From assembly GCA_020086605.1 (NCBI GenBank), contig JACBWW010000015.1:25610483-25674482 (forward strand): a stretch of 64,000 nt of DNA. Direction: 5' to 3'. The stretch comes from Lanius collurio. Lineage: Eukaryota; Chordata; Aves; Passeriformes; Laniidae. Made by a program: the position numbers and the translations under genes. The notes beneath the pieces are model-generated. The model did not search any database. It saw only the letters and a program-made list of their open reading frames with translations, and was not told the origin of the DNA. Below, piece by piece: positions 4,329-22,442 of this stretch; positions within the stretch are counted from its first letter, which is position 1, and every line of letters starts with the position of its first letter.

Positions 4329-4908
4329 TGTCGTGGTTTAACCCGAGCTGGCAATGAAGCCCCACAGAGCTGCTCGCTCACTCCCCACAACAGAATGGGG
4401 GACAGAATCAGAGTAAAAGTGAGAAAACTCAAGGGTTGAGGTGAGGGCAGTTTAATAAGAAGAGCAAAAGCTACGCAGGCAAGCAGAGCAAAACAAGGAA
4501 TTTATTCACTGCTTCCCATGAGCAGGCATATGTTCAGCCATACCCAGGTAAGCAGGGCTCCATCACACACAGTGGTTACTTGGGAAGACAAAAAGACACT
4601 ACAAATGTCTTCCACTTCCTTCATCTTCCTCCAGCTCTATATGCTGAGCATGATGCCATATGGAATGGAATATCACTTGGGTCAGCTAGGATCAGCTTCC
4701 CTGGCTGTGTCCCCTCCCAGCTCATTGTGCACCCCTAGCATCCTTGCTGGTGGGATGGGGTGAGAGGCCTTGACTCTGCGCAAGAGCTGCTCAGCAGTGA
4801 CCAAAATACCCCTGAATTATTGACACTGTTTCCAGCACAAATCCCAAACACAGCCCCATACCAACTAGTATAAAGAAAATTAACTCTAGCCCAATTAAAA
4901 CCAGCACA
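4329..4908 (-). mobile_element. Solo LTR of an avian endogenous retrovirus, inverted
   Basis: The block opens with TGTCGTGGTTTAACCC and closes with TTAACTCTAGCCCAATTAAA followed by ACCAGCACA. These are the reverse-complement ends of a common bird LTR whose sense strand starts TGTYCTGGTTTCAGCTGGG. Internal landmarks also fit: a GCTCGCTCACTCCCC block near 4372, a TTTAAT at 4451-4456 that reads ATTAAA (a polyadenylation signal) on the minus strand, and a tract around 4650-4720 that matches, in inverted form, the LTR at 21848-22442. No retroviral coding sequence flanks it, so it is a solo LTR. No clear target-site duplication remains, which suggests an old insertion. I recognise the family by its ends but do not assign a subfamily name. 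Confidence 0.85.
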
Positions 4909-6864
4909 CTGATGAGAAAAACAACGAAGATGAGAATATTTACCTACATTTCACATTTTCTCCTTGTTGGACACAATATAAGAGATTAAACACCCTGTGG
5001 TGAAGCTTCCCTTCCTTAGTATCACTGATTTGGAACTATCATAAAAACAGACGACTGCTTAAGGGCATCAGCACTGATCACAGGAGTCAATTGCCATCAA
5101 CTACATCAGCACTGACCACAGGAGTCAAATTCCTGTTTGGGGATTTGTGTTTGTGGGTTTTGGTTTTTTTATTTCTACAAAATCTAAGCATCTGAAAGCT
5201 CTAGCTAAAGGATAAGATTATTGATACAGAGCTAGATATGTATGTGCATCACTTGATATGCCAAACCATATGCCAAGGGAAGTCCTGAAGCATGTAAAGC
5301 TTCATCTGAAAATAATTCTTGTCAGAACTGGGGCCTGAATCTGCAACATATGATAATTTCCCTACACCCTATTTTCAGACCTGCCTCACTTGGGTTATCT
5401 TATCCCCCTGATCACACTGCAACACCCTACACCAAAAAAATAGAAAAAGCCCAACCCCCAAAACACGTTGCACAGCTGTCTCACTGTCACATTTATTATT
5501 CAAGAAAGGTCTCATTGAATAAATGTCTGTTCAGAGGCTCTAAACAAATTTCATTTCTGAACACCACTGTCTGCAGCCCAGCAGGCCATTTCACCAAGAT
5601 AAGATCACACATTTAATCAAACGCTTCAAAAAAGAAATACACACCGAGTTTGCTTAATAACATCAAATAATAAAAGTGCACTGCTGGCAGCATACTAATT
5701 TTTAGCGCTCTTTCTTCTTTGAGGGCTGTCTCAATAGTCAAGGTCAACCGTACATGGGATTTCTTCTAATTAGGGCTTCTGCTAATGGCTAGACCTGCTT
5801 ACTCTCACCACTTAGCCATGGTTTTCCCTAAAATGAAGACACCTCTCTTTCATTTTAAATTAAATCACTGCAGCATCCTACCCAAGTGCAACAGACAAAA
5901 CTGCATAACTCTGCTAATTCAACAGAGGACATAAATGAAAGAAACAAAAACCACATCTTTGTGGTCAACAAGGAATCATCCACACAAATGTCTATGGTAT
6001 AAAAGGAAAAGTGATTTAGAGTAAAGAAAAAAAACCCAAAACGTGATTATCTGCTTGGTATTTAACAATAGCTCTTACAGCAGCACAGCACAGACCTATT
6101 TTGAGTTAGAAATTGGGAGCGGACTTGGCACCCCTAGGTCAAAACACACTTTGCCCTTTATTTTATTGTAGTAGCAAGTAAGAGGAACCAGCTCAAAAAC
6201 CCAGCATTATGTTACTACTACTGCAAAACACATCAGTATTACTACAGACCAGACTAACTTACCTATTACTCAATTAACAATTATTTATTTATGCATTTAA
6301 GTAATCAGCTTTACCACAATGACAACTGCTGAAACAGGCTTTGCCCCCAAATTACATGAACTTGGGATAATCATGGACTCTTGCTGTGCTCAAGCCTGCA
6401 GCTTGAAAAGGGTCAAACAAAAGCTGGCATCCTCACCCTTACAGCCTGGCTCATAGGTTATGCTGGACTGCCCTTTGCTTGCTTGGGATGAGGGAGCAAC
6501 CAAGCATAAAGGCATTGGAGAAGACAACCCCCCATCTGCTGCTACCAAATCTTAAGATAAACAGTGAGGCAGCTCTGAGATATATTCCCCATCATATCCT
6601 ATTTTCCCTGTCAAAAACATCCCTGCAGACACTGTAGAGGTCCAGATTCTCCCCTTGAACAGGGACATCACAACTTAGTTTAGGCTAGCATAAGCAACTG
6701 CTTGAGTCTACTGGCAAACATCTTTCAAACGTCTCGAGTTTCACGCAGGGTCTCAGCTCCACTGCAAACACAGGGCTGCTCAGCTGGGAATATCCTCACG
6801 GGCTCAGTGATGTGTGCCTGTATTTCTCACCAAAACAAGGATACTTACATAAGTATCATTCCCT
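4909..6864. other. Gene-free stretch between LTR and CR1
   Basis: No gene is supported. Apart from the 25-bp direct repeat listed separately at 5066-5128, I see only unique AT-rich sequence with short A-tracts, for example near 6030. The reading frame at 5350-5616 has no recognisable domain and no flanking splice context that I could defend. Confidence 0.5.
5066..5128. repeat. 25-bp direct repeat, 38-bp offset
   Basis: CATCAGCACTGATCACAGGA plus GTCAA at 5066-5090 recurs at 5104-5128 with a single T-to-C change (GATCAC to GACCAC). The intervening 13 bases differ. This is a local tandem duplication, with no sign that it is part of a larger repeat family. Confidence 0.9.
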
Positions 6865-7810
6865 CATTGCAGTGGATATTGTTTACCTCAACTTCAGCAA
6901 GGTTTTAGACACTATCTCTCATAACATCCTCACAGGCAAGTTCCAGGAGCATGGAATGGATGAGAGGACAGTGAGGTGAATTGAGAAATGGCTGCACTGC
7001 AGGTCCCAGAGGGTTGTAATCACTGCACAGGGTTCATTTGGAGGTCTGTCACTGGTGCTGTCCCCCATGGTTCAACACTGGGTCCAGTTAATCAGTGACT
7101 TGGACAAAGGGGCAGATGCCTCTTCAGCAAGTTCACTGATGACAGAAGGCTGTGAGGAGTGGCTGAATCCCCAGAGCAGCCCTTCAGCAGAAATCATCTG
7201 AAATTCATTTAAGGCAAATTCAGCAGGGTCCTAACACCTGGGGCAGAATAACCCCACGCACCAGCACAGGTTGGGGCCAACCTGCTGGGAAGCAGCTCCA
7301 TGGAGAAGGACCTGGGGGTACTGGTGGACAACAGGCTGTCCATAAGCCAGCTGTGCCCTGGTGGTCAAGAAGGCCGATGGTATCCTGGGGTGCACTGGGA
7401 AGAGCATTGCCAGCAGGTTGAGGGGGATGATCCTGCCCCTCTACTCAACCTTGGTGAGGTGTCATCTAGAGTGCTGTGTCCAGTGCTGGGCTCCTCAGGA
7501 CAAAAGGCATGGAGCTCCTGGAGTGAGTCCAGTGGAGGCCAAGAAAGATGGTGGGGTGCCCAAAGCATTAAGGGACTGGAGCATTTATAGAAGTTATTCT
7601 TTACTGTGAGGGTGGCGAGGAACTGGCACAAGTCACACAGAGAAGCTGTGGATGCCCAGACACTGAGTGTTTAAGGCCAGGCTGGATGGGGCATTGAGCA
7701 ATCTCATCCAGTTGGAATGTATCCCTGCCCATAGCGGGGGGAAGGGGGGGGGGAGGAGATGATCTTTAAGGTCCCTTCCAACCTGAACCATTCTATGACT
7801 CCATGATACT
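6865..7810 (+). mobile_element. CR1 LINE, 5'-truncated, decayed RT plus 3' UTR
   Basis: Translation from about 6869 gives AVDIVYLNFSKVLDT, the CR1 reverse-transcriptase segment around the first conserved aspartate. Near 7132-7143 the catalytic box reads FTDD in place of the usual FADD/YADD. EKDLGVLVDNRLS follows in one frame from 7300. After a frameshift, ADGILGCTGKSIASR and LPLYSTLVRCHLE follow in another frame from about 7361. The 3' UTR ends in a G-rich run (7737-7761) and the terminus GGTCCCTTCCAACC with octamer-like ATTCTATGACTCCATGAT at about 7790. The copy carries frameshifts and stops (for example TGA near 6976), so it is dead. Its complete 3' end and missing 5' end are typical of CR1 retrotransposition. 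Confidence 0.93.
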
Positions 7811-15399: not shown

Positions 15400-16414
15400 C
15401 AATTTTCGTCGTTCAGCCATACACATCGGCCCTTGCTCAAAACAAACGCCGGTCGGATACTGTTAAGAGCTAGTGAGGGGGGAGCTCTGCACATCCCTAC
15501 CTACACCGTACCGTTTCGCTTTCTGGCTGCACGGGGAGGCGAAGCTCGCGTCTACCTGTAACCCGGGGCTGCTGGATGCAGACCTCTACCCTACACCCGC
15601 ACATCCGCACACAGGCAGCCTCCAACGCACACAATTCGGCAACACTCCCCCACTCATGCCCCTTGATATCCAAGAAAGCAGATGCTTCTCAAGGCACCCT
15701 TCAGCAATTAAACAGCAACGAAGATCCACGAAGGAGAGGGCATGAAGACGGGGGAAGGGGGTGAGGAGGGGGGAGACTGAAGAAACATAATGGAACTCAG
15801 GAATTCCTCAGTATAACACCAGCAAACCCCGCGGTCCAACGTGGTGCCTTTCAAAAAAAAAAAAAAAAACACCCCAAGAGAGAGCAAGAACAAAACCTAC
15901 CACCTACCAGGTCCCCTCCATCTCCTCACTGCCTTTACCACCCTAGCTGTCCACAGCGAAACCAGGCTGGAGCCTACGAGGCATTTCCAAATAAGATGCA
16001 CACCCCTTGTCTCCACTGCCGCCCAGCATGCAGCCCCAGAGAGATGCTCCCCCGTTACCTGGAGGATCCAGCCCCCCTGAAGACAAACTATCCTTATTAT
16101 AGCATAATTCAATCCAAGCGTGCGCCCAGGGCGGCCGGCACCCTACAGCCCACCGCAAGCGGGCAAGGGTGCAACTGAAGGCCAGGCAAGGGCTGCTGAA
16201 CATCCATCCGCTGCTTAGTTACCTTTAGTCACCTCCGGCTCCTGAGATGCGAGTCCCATCAGATCCTCAACAACCTGCAGCAGGGAGCTGCTGCCACAAT
16301 CCAGCCATTAAAACCAGGGGTGGGAGTAGGAAGCAGACCTGGCCACAGTACCAAAGCCCCCAGCCAGAAGCAAAAAGGGAGGATGAGAAGCACGGAACGT
16401 CCCTCAACCAAGGG

Positions 16415-16456
<42 letters not shown>
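16415..16456. repeat. Poly(A) tract in the CpG island shoulder
   Basis: A run of 30 A (16415-16444), one G and then 11 A lies about 150 bp beyond the proposed splice donor on the minus strand, where it reads as poly(T). There is no retrocopy body next to it. It may simply be an expanded homopolymer in the first intron. Confidence 0.9.
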
Positions 16457-16689
16457 TAGAAGTAAAGTCTTTCCTTTTCTGCCGTGTTCTTCTGCTACAC
16501 AAGCTTCCTCCCGGAGAATGAGGGTGTGTGGGGATGGGGGAGGCGATCGCTCCCTCTTCTTCCCCGCCGTCGCCGACCCCTCTGGACGAAAGGCCCGCTC
16601 CGATTTACCTCCTCCAGGTGGGCAACTTCAGAGCAAGGTGATGTCTCCGGAGCCGGCACCACCAGCCAAGCGATTCGGATGCGGCAGAG

Positions 16690-16742
16690 TCATTGCCCGT
16701 GCTGCTGTTGCCGCTGCTGCTGCCGCCGCCGCTGCTGGGGAA
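16690..16742 (-). repeat. GCN trinucleotide-rich tract in predicted exon 1
   Basis: The stretch is built of CTG, CCG and GTT triplets on the plus strand (GCAGC/GGC/AAC on the minus strand). In the three minus frames it reads Ser/Gly/Asn, Ala or Gln. Such tracts are common in 5' ends of vertebrate CpG-island genes and are prone to length change. Interruptions (TTG, CGT) make it impure. Confidence 0.75.
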
Positions 16743-17020
16743 GAACAGCCGCTGCCGAAGAGACCACCAAAAAAAAAACAAAAAAGGAGGGAAATCGTCC
16801 ACCATCCCCCTTTCTCTCTCTCCCCTCCAGCACCAGCCGCTCCTCGCATCCGCTCCCCTGCCGCGGCCCCTCGCTCCGCCGGGGCTGGGGGACACAAAGG
16901 CGCCCGCGCAGAGGGAGGCGGGTGGTCCTCAGCCCCCGCGCTCCGCAGACACCCTGGATCCTTCCTCCTCTTCCTCCTCCTCCCGCTGCGGAGACCGCCA
17001 GCCCCGGCGCGGCTCGGCGC

Positions 17021-17040
17021 GGGCGGGCGGGCGGAGGGGG
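17021..17040 (+). promoter_or_regulatory. Canonical G-quadruplex motif
   Basis: GGGCGGGCGGGCGGAGGGGG contains four runs of at least three G separated by loops of 1-3 bases, which meets the standard G3+N1-7 rule. It overlaps three Sp1-type GC boxes. It lies on the non-template (plus) strand relative to that motif, within the predicted exon or promoter. Fold formation is inference. Confidence 0.7.
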
Positions 17041-17439
17041 CGGCTCCGCGGGCGCGCTCCGCGCGGTGCTCAGCGGGCGCGGGGGGGTTGCATGGCCGCC
17101 CCGCCGGCTCCGCTCGGCTCGGCTCGGTACGGTACAGCGCACACGCACCGCACACGGGCAGGGCGCTCCAGGGACCCGCGGCACCCACGTCCCCCGCAGG
17201 GCCGGGAGCGGGGAACGGAGCCTGGGGAGGAGGCGGCGGCGGGCGGCGCGGCGCTGCTGCCCTGCCCGGCGGCGGCCGCACGGAGCCGCGCGGGCAGCGA
17301 GCCGAGGGGCGGGGGAGCGCTGAGGGCCCGGATCTGGGTTGCGCGGACGCGGGCTCCACCTAGCAGCCGGCCGGCACCGCACCGCACCGCAGCCACCCCT
17401 TACCCCGCAACCTCTGCAACCCCGGCCGCCACCACCTGT

Positions 17440-17850
17440 CCCGCAGCCCCCTCCCGAAAGGATCCTGCACCGCCCGATTGGACACTCTGCCCGTGGCTCC
17501 GCTACCTGCAGCCAATCGCAGCCTCTATACAGGGCACGGACCCACTCCACAGTGGATCTCCCACGTCGCGATTGGCCGCTTGGACTTTTGTCCCCATTCA
17601 AGCAACCAATTGCAGCCTGCCTTTCCGGCACAGATCCATCACCTGTGTGGTTCCCTCGCCCCCGATTGGGTGCTGTGCCCTCTGATCGCCTCCCCGGAAG
17701 CCAATTGCATCCTGTATTTCCAGTACAGACCCATTTCCCACTAGATTCCCCGGCTCACGATTGGTCTCTCAGGCTCAGCCTCTCAGAGCCTGCCTCCTGG
17801 TCAAGGATGCTCTCCCTCCTGTCCAGCACGGGGATGGGGCTCAGCGCAGC
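17440..17850. repeat. Diverged tandem repeat, 94-95 bp period
   Basis: Units starting at ATTGG are 17477-17570 (94 bp), 17571-17664 (94 bp) and 17665-17759 (95 bp), with a partial fourth from 17760. Each unit has the same order: (i) a CG-ATTGG start; (ii) at +35 or +36, CCAAT followed by TGCA or CGCA and a CCTG-like block; (iii) a conserved CAGGGCACGGACCC / CCGGCACAGATCC / CCAGTACAGACCC block; (iv) GGATCTCCC / GGTTCCCTC / AGATTCCCC just before the next ATTGG. The fourth unit keeps ATTGG and a TGTCCAGCACGGGG version of block iii near 17820 but has lost its CCAAT. Unit spacers have diverged heavily, while the ATTGG and CCAAT pentamers are intact. Sequence just left of 17477 (GATCCTGCACCGCCCG) matches the unit end, so the repeat begins before that point. 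Confidence 0.88.
17477..17764. promoter_or_regulatory. Seven-site NF-Y (CCAAT-box) array
   Basis: ATTGG occurs at 17477-17481, 17571-17575, 17665-17669 and 17760-17764. CCAAT occurs at 17512-17516, 17606-17610 and 17701-17705. Spacings alternate 35, 59, 35, 59, 36, 59. All seven fit the extended NF-Y consensus (RRCCAAT), for example AGCCAATCGC, AACCAATTGC and, in reverse complement, GGCCAATCGC and ACCCAATCGG. NF-Y is the trimeric CCAAT-binding factor that opens CpG-island promoters, usually 60-100 bp upstream of the start. The box at 17477 would then place a minus-strand start near 17390. The box at 17760 could equally serve a plus-strand start near 17850. Occupancy is inferred, not seen. Confidence 0.85.
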
Positions 17851-19540
17851 CTGCCATCAGCTGGGGCCGGCAAGACACTCTGTCCTTGCCCTGGCACCCC
17901 TAGGAAGTAGGAAACGTGAACCCCCTCGTCTCTTGAGAGTCAGGAACCTCGAGGAAAGAGGACAAGAAGCCTGCCTCTGTCTTAACATTTGTGATCTTAA
18001 ATGTGTACGTGGGATCTCCAGAAATAATGGTGCTTGGCTGGAACATGATAACCAGTTTTGTCACAAACCAAAATGTTTGTTTGCTTTTAGTTTTTATGGG
18101 AAGGACCTAAACAAATGAATTTTTTTTAACAACAAAACAACCGAAAAGGAAGAAAGTTGTAGTTTTCTCATTGCTTGACTGCTTACACAGGCAACATGCC
18201 TCACTATCCCAGTGACCAGACCTATATGGGAAGATGCTGCTGCACTCCCAGCTTTGGCTGTAGTCAAGAGAGCTGGGAGGGCAAATCAGGCCCTCCTGGT
18301 CCAGCCCAATGAGAGATCCACTCATTTCATTTTCCTGCTCAGCTTTTTCCTTAACAAGCTCTAAAGTATCCTTGATGGTGGAGACCTTGCAAGGCTATCC
18401 TTTTAAATGGGATAAGGAAATAAAGTAATCTTGTTTGTTAACTTGGACCATGAGTCAGGAAGATGATCACACATGTTCCTAGCAGAATTGCTAGTTAGAC
18501 AGGCACAGAAATGTGTATTTAGGGTTAAGAATTGCTCTTCTGGATGCGTTGATGTGCAGTGGAAAATTAGTACCGATAAACATAAGTGCTGTTTTCCCAA
18601 TAATAAAATAAGGGCCCATTCATTGACACTGCAAAAATAAAGAAAGAACATCGGCTGTGGTCAGGGAAGGGAAATCTTCAATTTTTAACAGATCTGCCTC
18701 AGCCATTTCCATTTCCAGTAGATCTCTGCAAAGTCATGTTAAAGAACACCTGTCCTTTCCTATATGGCTGCAGAATAGCCTCACATGTCCAAGTGAACGA
18801 TGTACAGTCTTCTACAATCATTTATTTACGAAAAAGTAGATTTCAAAGCAATTAAAATCCATTGTGCTTTGGACCTTGCACTTGGCTTACCAAAATTATT
18901 ATCCCCAGTGAAAAAAGCCCTTGGAGAATCTATTGGTCCATCTATTGGTCCATCTTTGGCAAAGTCCTTCTTGTAACAGCCCTTCTTCTAGCATCTGCAT
19001 GGAGGGGAAAACCAAAAAAAAAAATAAAAACCTGAAACAAACAAGCAAAACAGCAACCAAAAAAGCCCCCTCACAAAACCAACCAACCAACCCTACTCCC
19101 CCCAAAAAAACCAAACCAAACTAGCAAAACCACCAAATCTTTAATACTGCTTCTGCTGGGATGCTCAGAGATATGAGATATGACATTCTTCAATATACAA
19201 TCACCTGTCTGATGATTTCACCATTCACCAGACATACTACAGGTATGAAACAAAGCCCTACAAGTTGAAATTAGATTTCCTCTATATCTTTAAACTCTGT
19301 TGCAATGCACAAGTGAGAATGAAATCAATGTTTAGTCAGTGAGTAAAGAAAAGACAAAAAACCCACTAAGCTAAAAGCATGGTGGTGTGTTTTTTTCCCC
19401 TCTCATAGCATTCCATATAATGGAGATGGAAGAAACCTGATAAATTGTGGGGGGAGGCAAGGAAGAGCTTCAAAATGCCACCAGCCTGTTGTGCTATTGG
19501 TGCTTTTTAGAATCATGTCTTGGGCTTAATGCTGTGAGTC
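17851..19540. other. Gene-free stretch right of the promoter
   Basis: Composition drops quickly from GC-rich to AT-rich after about 17980. A long plus-strand frame running 17339-18118 covers the island edge and the CCAAT repeat, but the repeat period (94, 94 and 95 bp) is not a multiple of three and no domain is visible, so I do not call it a gene. A short duplication, TCTATTGGTCCA twice, lies near 18930-18955. An A/C-rich tract follows at 19010-19130. Confidence 0.5.
19010..19130 (+). repeat. A/C-rich low-complexity tract
   Basis: The tract consists of A-runs punctuated by CC, such as ACCAAAAAAAAAATAAAAAC, AACCAACCAACC and CCAAACCAAAC. It belongs to a class of similar tracts in this window (8968, 31978, 40321, 41787 on plus; 26636 and 54187 in complement). 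It is non-coding despite an open frame through it. Confidence 0.85.
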
Positions 19541-21206: not shown

Positions 21207-21848
21207 CAGATAGATGGTAACACTGAATTAGACCTCGACAGACTCCACATTCTGTGTTTTCCTCATCATCATCTCCTCTGCAGTCCTGGTTTAGGAAAGC
21301 ACTGTGAGATCCCTTCCTGCCAGAGAAGCACCTCATGTTTTTGCATGCTGATTATTCCCATGCTCATTTTTGGGCACAAACCTCAGTGGGGCTGCTTGTA
21401 CTGGGCTCAAGCAAAATTCCAAAATAAGGAGTAGTTCAAGAGCAGAAATCAGCAACAAGGCTCACACTTAATCTGACTTTTGTAGTCTCTTCCTCTGAAT
21501 CTGTACTTTCCTCTTCATTTTGATACTATTCTTCTTGGTATGAGAATAACGTCAAAAATAACAAAACTCCCCCATCCCATACATAGAAAATGCAACTAAC
21601 AATGATTTAATTTTGAAAATGTGGGCTGTCAAAAAAATGCTTTCCACTTAAGGGATGGTTTAAGCCATAGCACACTTGCCAACCATAGTAGGTTTGCAGT
21701 GCCTTGGCACCAACAAAACAGGAGAGAAAAGGAGAGAAACCGCTGTGAGATGTCTAGTCCCTAACTTTAATCTAACATATTTCCTTGGAACCTATTCATG
21801 CCCAATGCCTGGTACAGCAGAAGATGGGTTGTCAGTTTCTCAATAACT
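19801..21848. other. Gene-free AT-rich stretch
   Basis: No gene or recognised transposon was seen other than the microsatellite at 21149-21206. The sequence is T-leaning, with pyrimidine tracts such as the one at 20695-20720. Short frames here have no recognisable motifs. Confidence 0.5.
21149..21206 (+). repeat. Compound microsatellite (GATA)9(GA)11
   Basis: Nine perfect GATA units (21149-21184) pass directly into eleven GA units (21185-21206), followed by an imperfect CAGATAGATGG. Perfect arrays of this length are normally polymorphic. GATA arrays also offer clustered GATA-factor sites, although function is not implied. Confidence 0.97.
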
Positions 21849-22442
21849 GTTCTGGTTTCAGCTGGGGTAGAGTTAATTTTGTGCACAGAGGCTATTATTG
21901 GTCTGTGTTTGGGATTTGTGCTGAACACAGCGATGATAATCGAAAGATGATTTTGTTATTGCTGAGCAGGGCTTGTACAGAGCCAAGGCCATTTCTGTTG
22001 TGTGGACTGCCACTCTGGCAGGGAGGCTGGGGATGAAGGCACGGGACGTTGGGAGGAGACACAGCCAGGTCAGGTGATCCAAACTGACCAAAGGGATATT
22101 CCAGACCATGTGGCATCATGCTCAGTATATAAAGTGGGGAGAAGGAGGAATGAGGGGCGTTTGGAGGGATGATGGTTTTCTTCCCAAGTCACCATTAGGT
22201 GTGCTGGGGCCCTGCTCTCTTCAAGATGACTAAACATCTTCCTGCCCATGGGAAGCACTGAATTAATTCCTTGTTTTGCATTGCCTGAGTGAGCCACTTT
22301 TGCTTTTCCTATTAAAACATCTTTATCTCAGCCCACGAGTTTTCTAGCTTTTGCTTCTCCAACTCTCTCACCAATCTTGCTGGTGGGGGAGTAAGTGAGC
22401 TGTTGCATGGGACTTTGTTGATGGCTGAGGTAAACCATGACA
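21848..22442 (+). mobile_element. Solo LTR of an avian endogenous retrovirus, sense
   Basis: It begins TGTTCTGGTTTCAGCTGGGG then TAGAGTTAATTTT and ends GAGGTAAACCATGACA. These are the sense-strand ends of the LTR family also present inverted at 4329-4908. Promoter and polyadenylation landmarks are in the right order for an LTR: TATATAAA at 22126-22133 and ATTAAA at 22311-22316, with a G/T-rich stretch after it. No gag, pol or env sequence flanks it, so it is a solo LTR. The bases immediately outside share only AAC, so the target duplication is eroded or not recognisable. The intact TATA box makes residual promoter activity conceivable. Confidence 0.88.

Follow-up and report, generated by a model that had tools for sequence, protein, structure and literature searches.

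NF-Y is a common promoter factor that binds CCAAT boxes. Within the window analyzed here (a contiguous stretch of 64 kb), seven intact CCAAT/ATTGG boxes of alternating orientation lie between positions 17477 and 17764, a span of only 288 bp. This arrangement raises the question of how so regular a set of boxes came to lie at one place, and whether the boxes act together. Successive box spacings of 35, 59, 35, 59, 36, and 59 bp define units of 94, 94, and 95 bp (Table 1), in full agreement with the rhythm described in the initial annotation. At least two intact boxes within a few hundred base pairs, as seen in multi-CCAAT NF-Y promoters, are thus present. The seven-box rhythm is not explained by chance: background density is 1.64 boxes per kb (105 boxes in the 64-kb window), dinucleotide shuffles of 17441-17850 contained 0.89 boxes on average and five at most (n = 2000), and, outside the array, 300-bp counts starting at each box never exceeded four anywhere in the 264 kb formed by the window and 100 kb per side (415 boxes).

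Table 1. Coordinates of the box array and of the features around it (window positions, except for the window itself).
Feature	Position	Strand	Remark
Window	C15:25610483-25674482		of the 1.1-Gb genome
CpG island, ~1.4 kb	16401-17850	.	array on right shoulder; 500-bp windows, GC > 0.55, o/e > 0.6
Predicted leftward transcription-start zone	17300-17460	-	placed from the location of array and island
Possible remnant of the end of an earlier, decayed B spacer	17437-17473	+	marginal; matches the flank of box 2 alone (51% identity, 37 bp)
NF-Y box array	17473-17764	.	seven boxes, three A spacers, three B spacers
ATTGG box starts	17477, 17571, 17665, 17760		
CCAAT box starts	17512, 17606, 17701		
Unit 1, 94 bp	17473-17566	+	ATTGG 17477, CCAAT 17512; matches sequence model R1 by construction
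Unit 2, 94 bp	17567-17660	+	ATTGG 17571, CCAAT 17606; matches R1 by construction
Unit 3, 95 bp	17661-17755	+	ATTGG 17665, CCAAT 17701; matches R1 by construction
Start of fourth unit, CACGATTGG	17756-17764	+	box at 17760

Comparison of the array with itself revealed identity peaks at offsets of 189, 94, and 95 bp (0.45, 0.42, and 0.42, respectively), the highest value reached at any offset in 500 shuffles being 0.416. Homology also extends beyond the shared motifs. Once the boxes and their near flanks were masked, identities among the 47-bp B spacers (CCAAT to the next ATTGG) were 0.45, 0.60, and 0.64 (P = 0.008, 0.0003, and 0.0003) against shuffle means of 0.29-0.30. The 23-bp A spacers (ATTGG to CCAAT), masked likewise, showed weaker identities of 0.43, 0.61, and 0.48 (P = 0.09, 0.006, and 0.03). 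The ~94-bp repeat is therefore a tandem duplication, as had been claimed at the outset, and an old one; Tandem Repeats Finder (TRF) did not report the array at its default threshold. B-spacer similarity is highest between units 2 and 3, which also share the extended box CCAATTG, and A-spacer similarity is highest between units 1 and 3; because the closest pair differs, the order of duplication was not simple. The remaining five of the seven boxes read CCAATCG. Measured against what we take to be the flank preference of NF-Y, four of the seven boxes deviate, with a T following those at 17606 and 17701 and a pyrimidine preceding those at 17477 and 17665.

Tandem repeats that carry CCAAT boxes might also have arrived with a mobile element. 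The U3 region of human ERV9 LTR12 holds CCAAT sites within tandem repeats of ~41 bp, 5-17 in number (PMC11853044), and the array could be the remnant of an LTR with NF-Y enhancer repeats of this kind. We regard such an origin as highly improbable. A DNA search of the 1.1-Gb genome with the 411-bp array returned a single match, the array itself (copies that differ as much as the units do among themselves could escape), whereas a control search with an interspersed repeat from the window returned 3055 first-look candidates; the 40 that were scored comprised the query itself and 39 others at 74-78% identity. A recognizable transposon family is accordingly disfavored. A scan of 344 kb with sequence model R1, which was constructed from the three units, returned nothing but these units, and the exact unit pattern had no match in viral contigs, a weak test. 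Compared with ERV9/LTR12, the dispersed copies are missing, within the stated limit on strongly diverged ones, and the unit is 94-95 bp rather than ~41 bp. The control repeat itself occurs in the window as two opposite copies, 73% identical, at 4451-4919 (+) and 21836-22316 (-). Remnants of a CR1-like reverse transcriptase with broken frames were recognized by eye at 6689-7610; these remnants and the size of the genome are consistent with a bird.

The ends of the array are less regular than its interior. A partial fourth unit had been proposed, and its ATTGG box is indeed in place; what lies beyond that box does not bear the proposal out. Past 17764, A-type identity to the three units is near chance (P = 0.08, 0.22, and 0.49), and a fourth forward CCAAT box is absent at the expected place. 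MAFFT aligns CCTCT to that position, and for unit 1 the corresponding alignment does not outscore shuffled sequence (P = 0.36). When the sequence that follows 17765 was aligned with gaps to each forward-box block, unit 2 alone among the three fell below 0.05 (P = 0.012, at 17846 and off register); on the left side of unit 1, unit 2 was again the only one of three to do so (P = 0.038). An older B spacer may have left its end immediately before unit 1; this reading is marginal, the P values being 0.0045 for the flank of box 2 and 0.76 and 0.15 for the two ATTGG boxes that follow. Nine comparisons were made in all, and the three that fell below 0.05 were each against box 2.

Whether selection has kept the boxes intact is a separate matter, and here the tests diverge. 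Among the three units, all 10 box columns are invariant versus 33 of 84 others (Fisher P = 0.0002), a post hoc contrast in that it was their intactness that drew attention to the boxes, which also fixed the alignment register. The seven columns of CGATTGG are invariant in all four units (P = 0.0016), with the run anchored on the box and the register of the fourth unit resting on that same box. These results suggest purifying selection on the boxes, as originally proposed, but an unanchored permutation asking for two invariant runs of at least five columns anywhere in the three units gave P = 0.21, and the missing fourth forward box weakens the proposal further. A decaying tandem duplication whose founder unit happened to carry two CCAAT boxes, which then survived by chance and serve no collective function, would fit this permutation result: 43 of 94 columns are invariant, and the 94-bp period alone accounts for both rhythm and phasing. 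The lack of a forward box where the fourth unit should carry one fits as well. On the other side, the only two invariant runs of five columns are exactly the boxes, and a retention model fitted to spacer identity, in which the boxes are assumed ancestral and were picked after the fact, puts the probability that at least seven of eight boxes stay intact at 3e-6 to 5e-4. Weighing these points, we judge chance survival unlikely, while giving it appreciable weight, and regard selection as likely though not demonstrated by these tests. That the boxes were kept while the spacers drifted would thus reflect either selected occupancy or luck.

The geometry of the array bears on how it could be occupied. 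Equivalent boxes had been claimed to share one face of the helix. At 10.5 bp per turn, this holds within each orientation set, the reverse boxes lying at 0, 0.95, 0.90, and 0.95 turns and the forward boxes at 0.33, 0.29, and 0.33 turns, but not between the sets, whose faces are about one third of a turn apart. The phasing follows from the repeat length; because the units are copies, it represents one coincidence rather than seven. In PMC4982600, the limits of NF-Y contact are -7 and +17, counted from the first C of CCAAT. By geometry alone, the predicted 25-bp footprints would leave gaps of 16-17 and 28 bp between neighbors without overlap, so all seven boxes could be filled together, a spacing of the kind that multi-CCAAT NF-Y promoters need for joint filling. 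About 1.2 kb to the right of the array, a 12-bp tandem repeat, ATCTATTGGTCC (18928-18959), carries two further ATTGG boxes only 12 bp apart; these are closer than the 24-bp minimum that PMC4982600 gives for two NF-Y trimers.

The array sits on the right-hand shoulder of a CpG island, which upholds the initial placement at an island edge; under a stricter cut the island extends from 16401 to 17801, and one further, smaller island occurs in 264 kb. From its position relative to array and island, a transcription-start zone may lie just left of the array (Table 1), and a leftward start there would place the island core downstream. No TATA-like word occurs in 16301-18000, and Sp1-like words are found there at 17021 and 17307. 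GC skew did not indicate a start direction. Units 2 and 3 also contain ETS-like words, CCGGAA(A/G), at 17622-17628 (-) and 17694-17700 (+), the only ones in 16301-18000.

Codon-bias scans (window plus 100 kb on each side) and splice-aware exon scans (264 kb and 344 kb) produced no convincing coding exon anywhere in the 344 kb; both relied on assumed codon and splice frequencies and were run without a positive control, and real exons, small ones above all, may thus be missed. The high scorers of the scans were frames inside the CpG island and, in the flanks, several within patches that are GC-rich or resemble CR1. Among eight high-scoring flank frames, Pfam detected no family at E 0.1, and the remaining high-scoring flank frames were dismissed as exons by eye. 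For 108 selected open frames of the window, Pfam returned four families with one member each (best E 0.041), and a search of the window at Rfam gathering thresholds gave no match. The island could possibly serve a gene whose first intron is very long, a long non-coding RNA, or a distant gene as its promoter.

With either gene orientation possible and moderate donor-like sites on both strands, the array could instead sit inside a transcribed region or intron, where it would act as an enhancer or hinder initiation rather than serve as an upstream promoter element. PMC11269187 reports that NF-Y activates or represses according to position relative to the start, and that NF-Y sites at +25 lowered initiation. 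Location on the island shoulder, with the GC-rich core to one side, suits an upstream array somewhat better and is not decisive; on balance, we consider an array within a transcribed region improbable.

Our preferred reading, which we hold to be slightly better than an even proposition, sees in the array a homotypic NF-Y platform situated at a CpG-island promoter, or at an alternative promoter. According to this model, a two-box ATTGG...CCAAT module of ~94 bp would have been multiplied by local tandem duplication, and its spacers would have drifted while the boxes stayed, through selected occupancy or luck. Several NF-Y trimers could bind simultaneously, keep ~300 bp depleted of nucleosomes, and direct transcription to start next to the array, most likely toward the island on its left. 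We infer NF-Y binding, openness, and the direction of transcription at the array from sequence features and their positions. The NF-Y platform is favored by the rhythm, the repeat outside the boxes, the invariant boxes, CGATTGG in four units, CCAATCG in five of seven boxes, the non-colliding footprints, and the island shoulder. Precedent from mouse cells also argues for it: in PMC6624317, NF-Y holds the region upstream of transcription starts nucleosome-depleted and guards against wrong initiation, and promoters whose starts shift upon loss of NF-YA have more CCAAT motifs; the positional action of NF-Y described in PMC11269187 points the same way. Arguing against the platform are the unanchored permutation of invariant runs, the missing fourth forward box, the four boxes with unfavored flanks, and the inverted order of neighboring boxes, direct repeats being much commoner in the human NF-Y/c-Fos intervals of PMC4982600.

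A more elaborate version of the NF-Y platform can be envisaged, in which a lineage-specific promoter raised its number of NF-Y sites by repeated duplication of the inverted two-box module, and serial NF-Y bends, from boxes on two fixed helical faces, would build a nucleosome-excluding scaffold at the CpG-island border; this proposal strikes us as doubtful. Should the array be occupied, it would constitute a natural NF-Y dose series in which duplication changes the number of boxes at one promoter while spacing is inherited. Bird species differing in unit count would then provide a direct test of how site number and spacing affect nucleosome depletion and start-site choice.

Multi-CCAAT NF-Y promoters, such as those of TOP2B and of cyclin B2, a cell-cycle promoter, resemble the array in that multiple CCAAT boxes lie a fixed distance apart close to a promoter (putative for the array), but differ from its seven strictly alternating boxes on a visible ~94-bp tandem duplication. 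In TOP2B, two CCAAT boxes at a distance of 32 both bind NF-Y, and significant promoter shutdown occurs only when both are lost (PMC4982600, on Lok et al.). That paper terms the two TOP2B boxes a direct repeat and also inverted, which limits the comparison of orientation with the array accordingly. It further states that direct CCAAT repeats are much commoner than inverted or everted pairs in human NF-Y/c-Fos intervals; promoters of this direct-repeat class share a defined box spacing with the array, but their preferred distance is 31 bp, whereas neighbors in the array are inverted and its direct repeats are 94-95 bp apart (PMC4982600). The U3 region of ERV9 LTR12 likewise has tandem repeats with one CCAAT box each, although these are ~41 bp long in an element of ~5,000 copies, compared with 94-95-bp units found once in the genome (PMC11853044). 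A search of the open-licence PMC literature, with subscription papers largely outside its reach, returned no such array in a cellular promoter. As a promoter-like architecture the array is real and probably uncommon, and its alternating order, 94-bp unit, and single locus distinguish it from the nearest known kinds.
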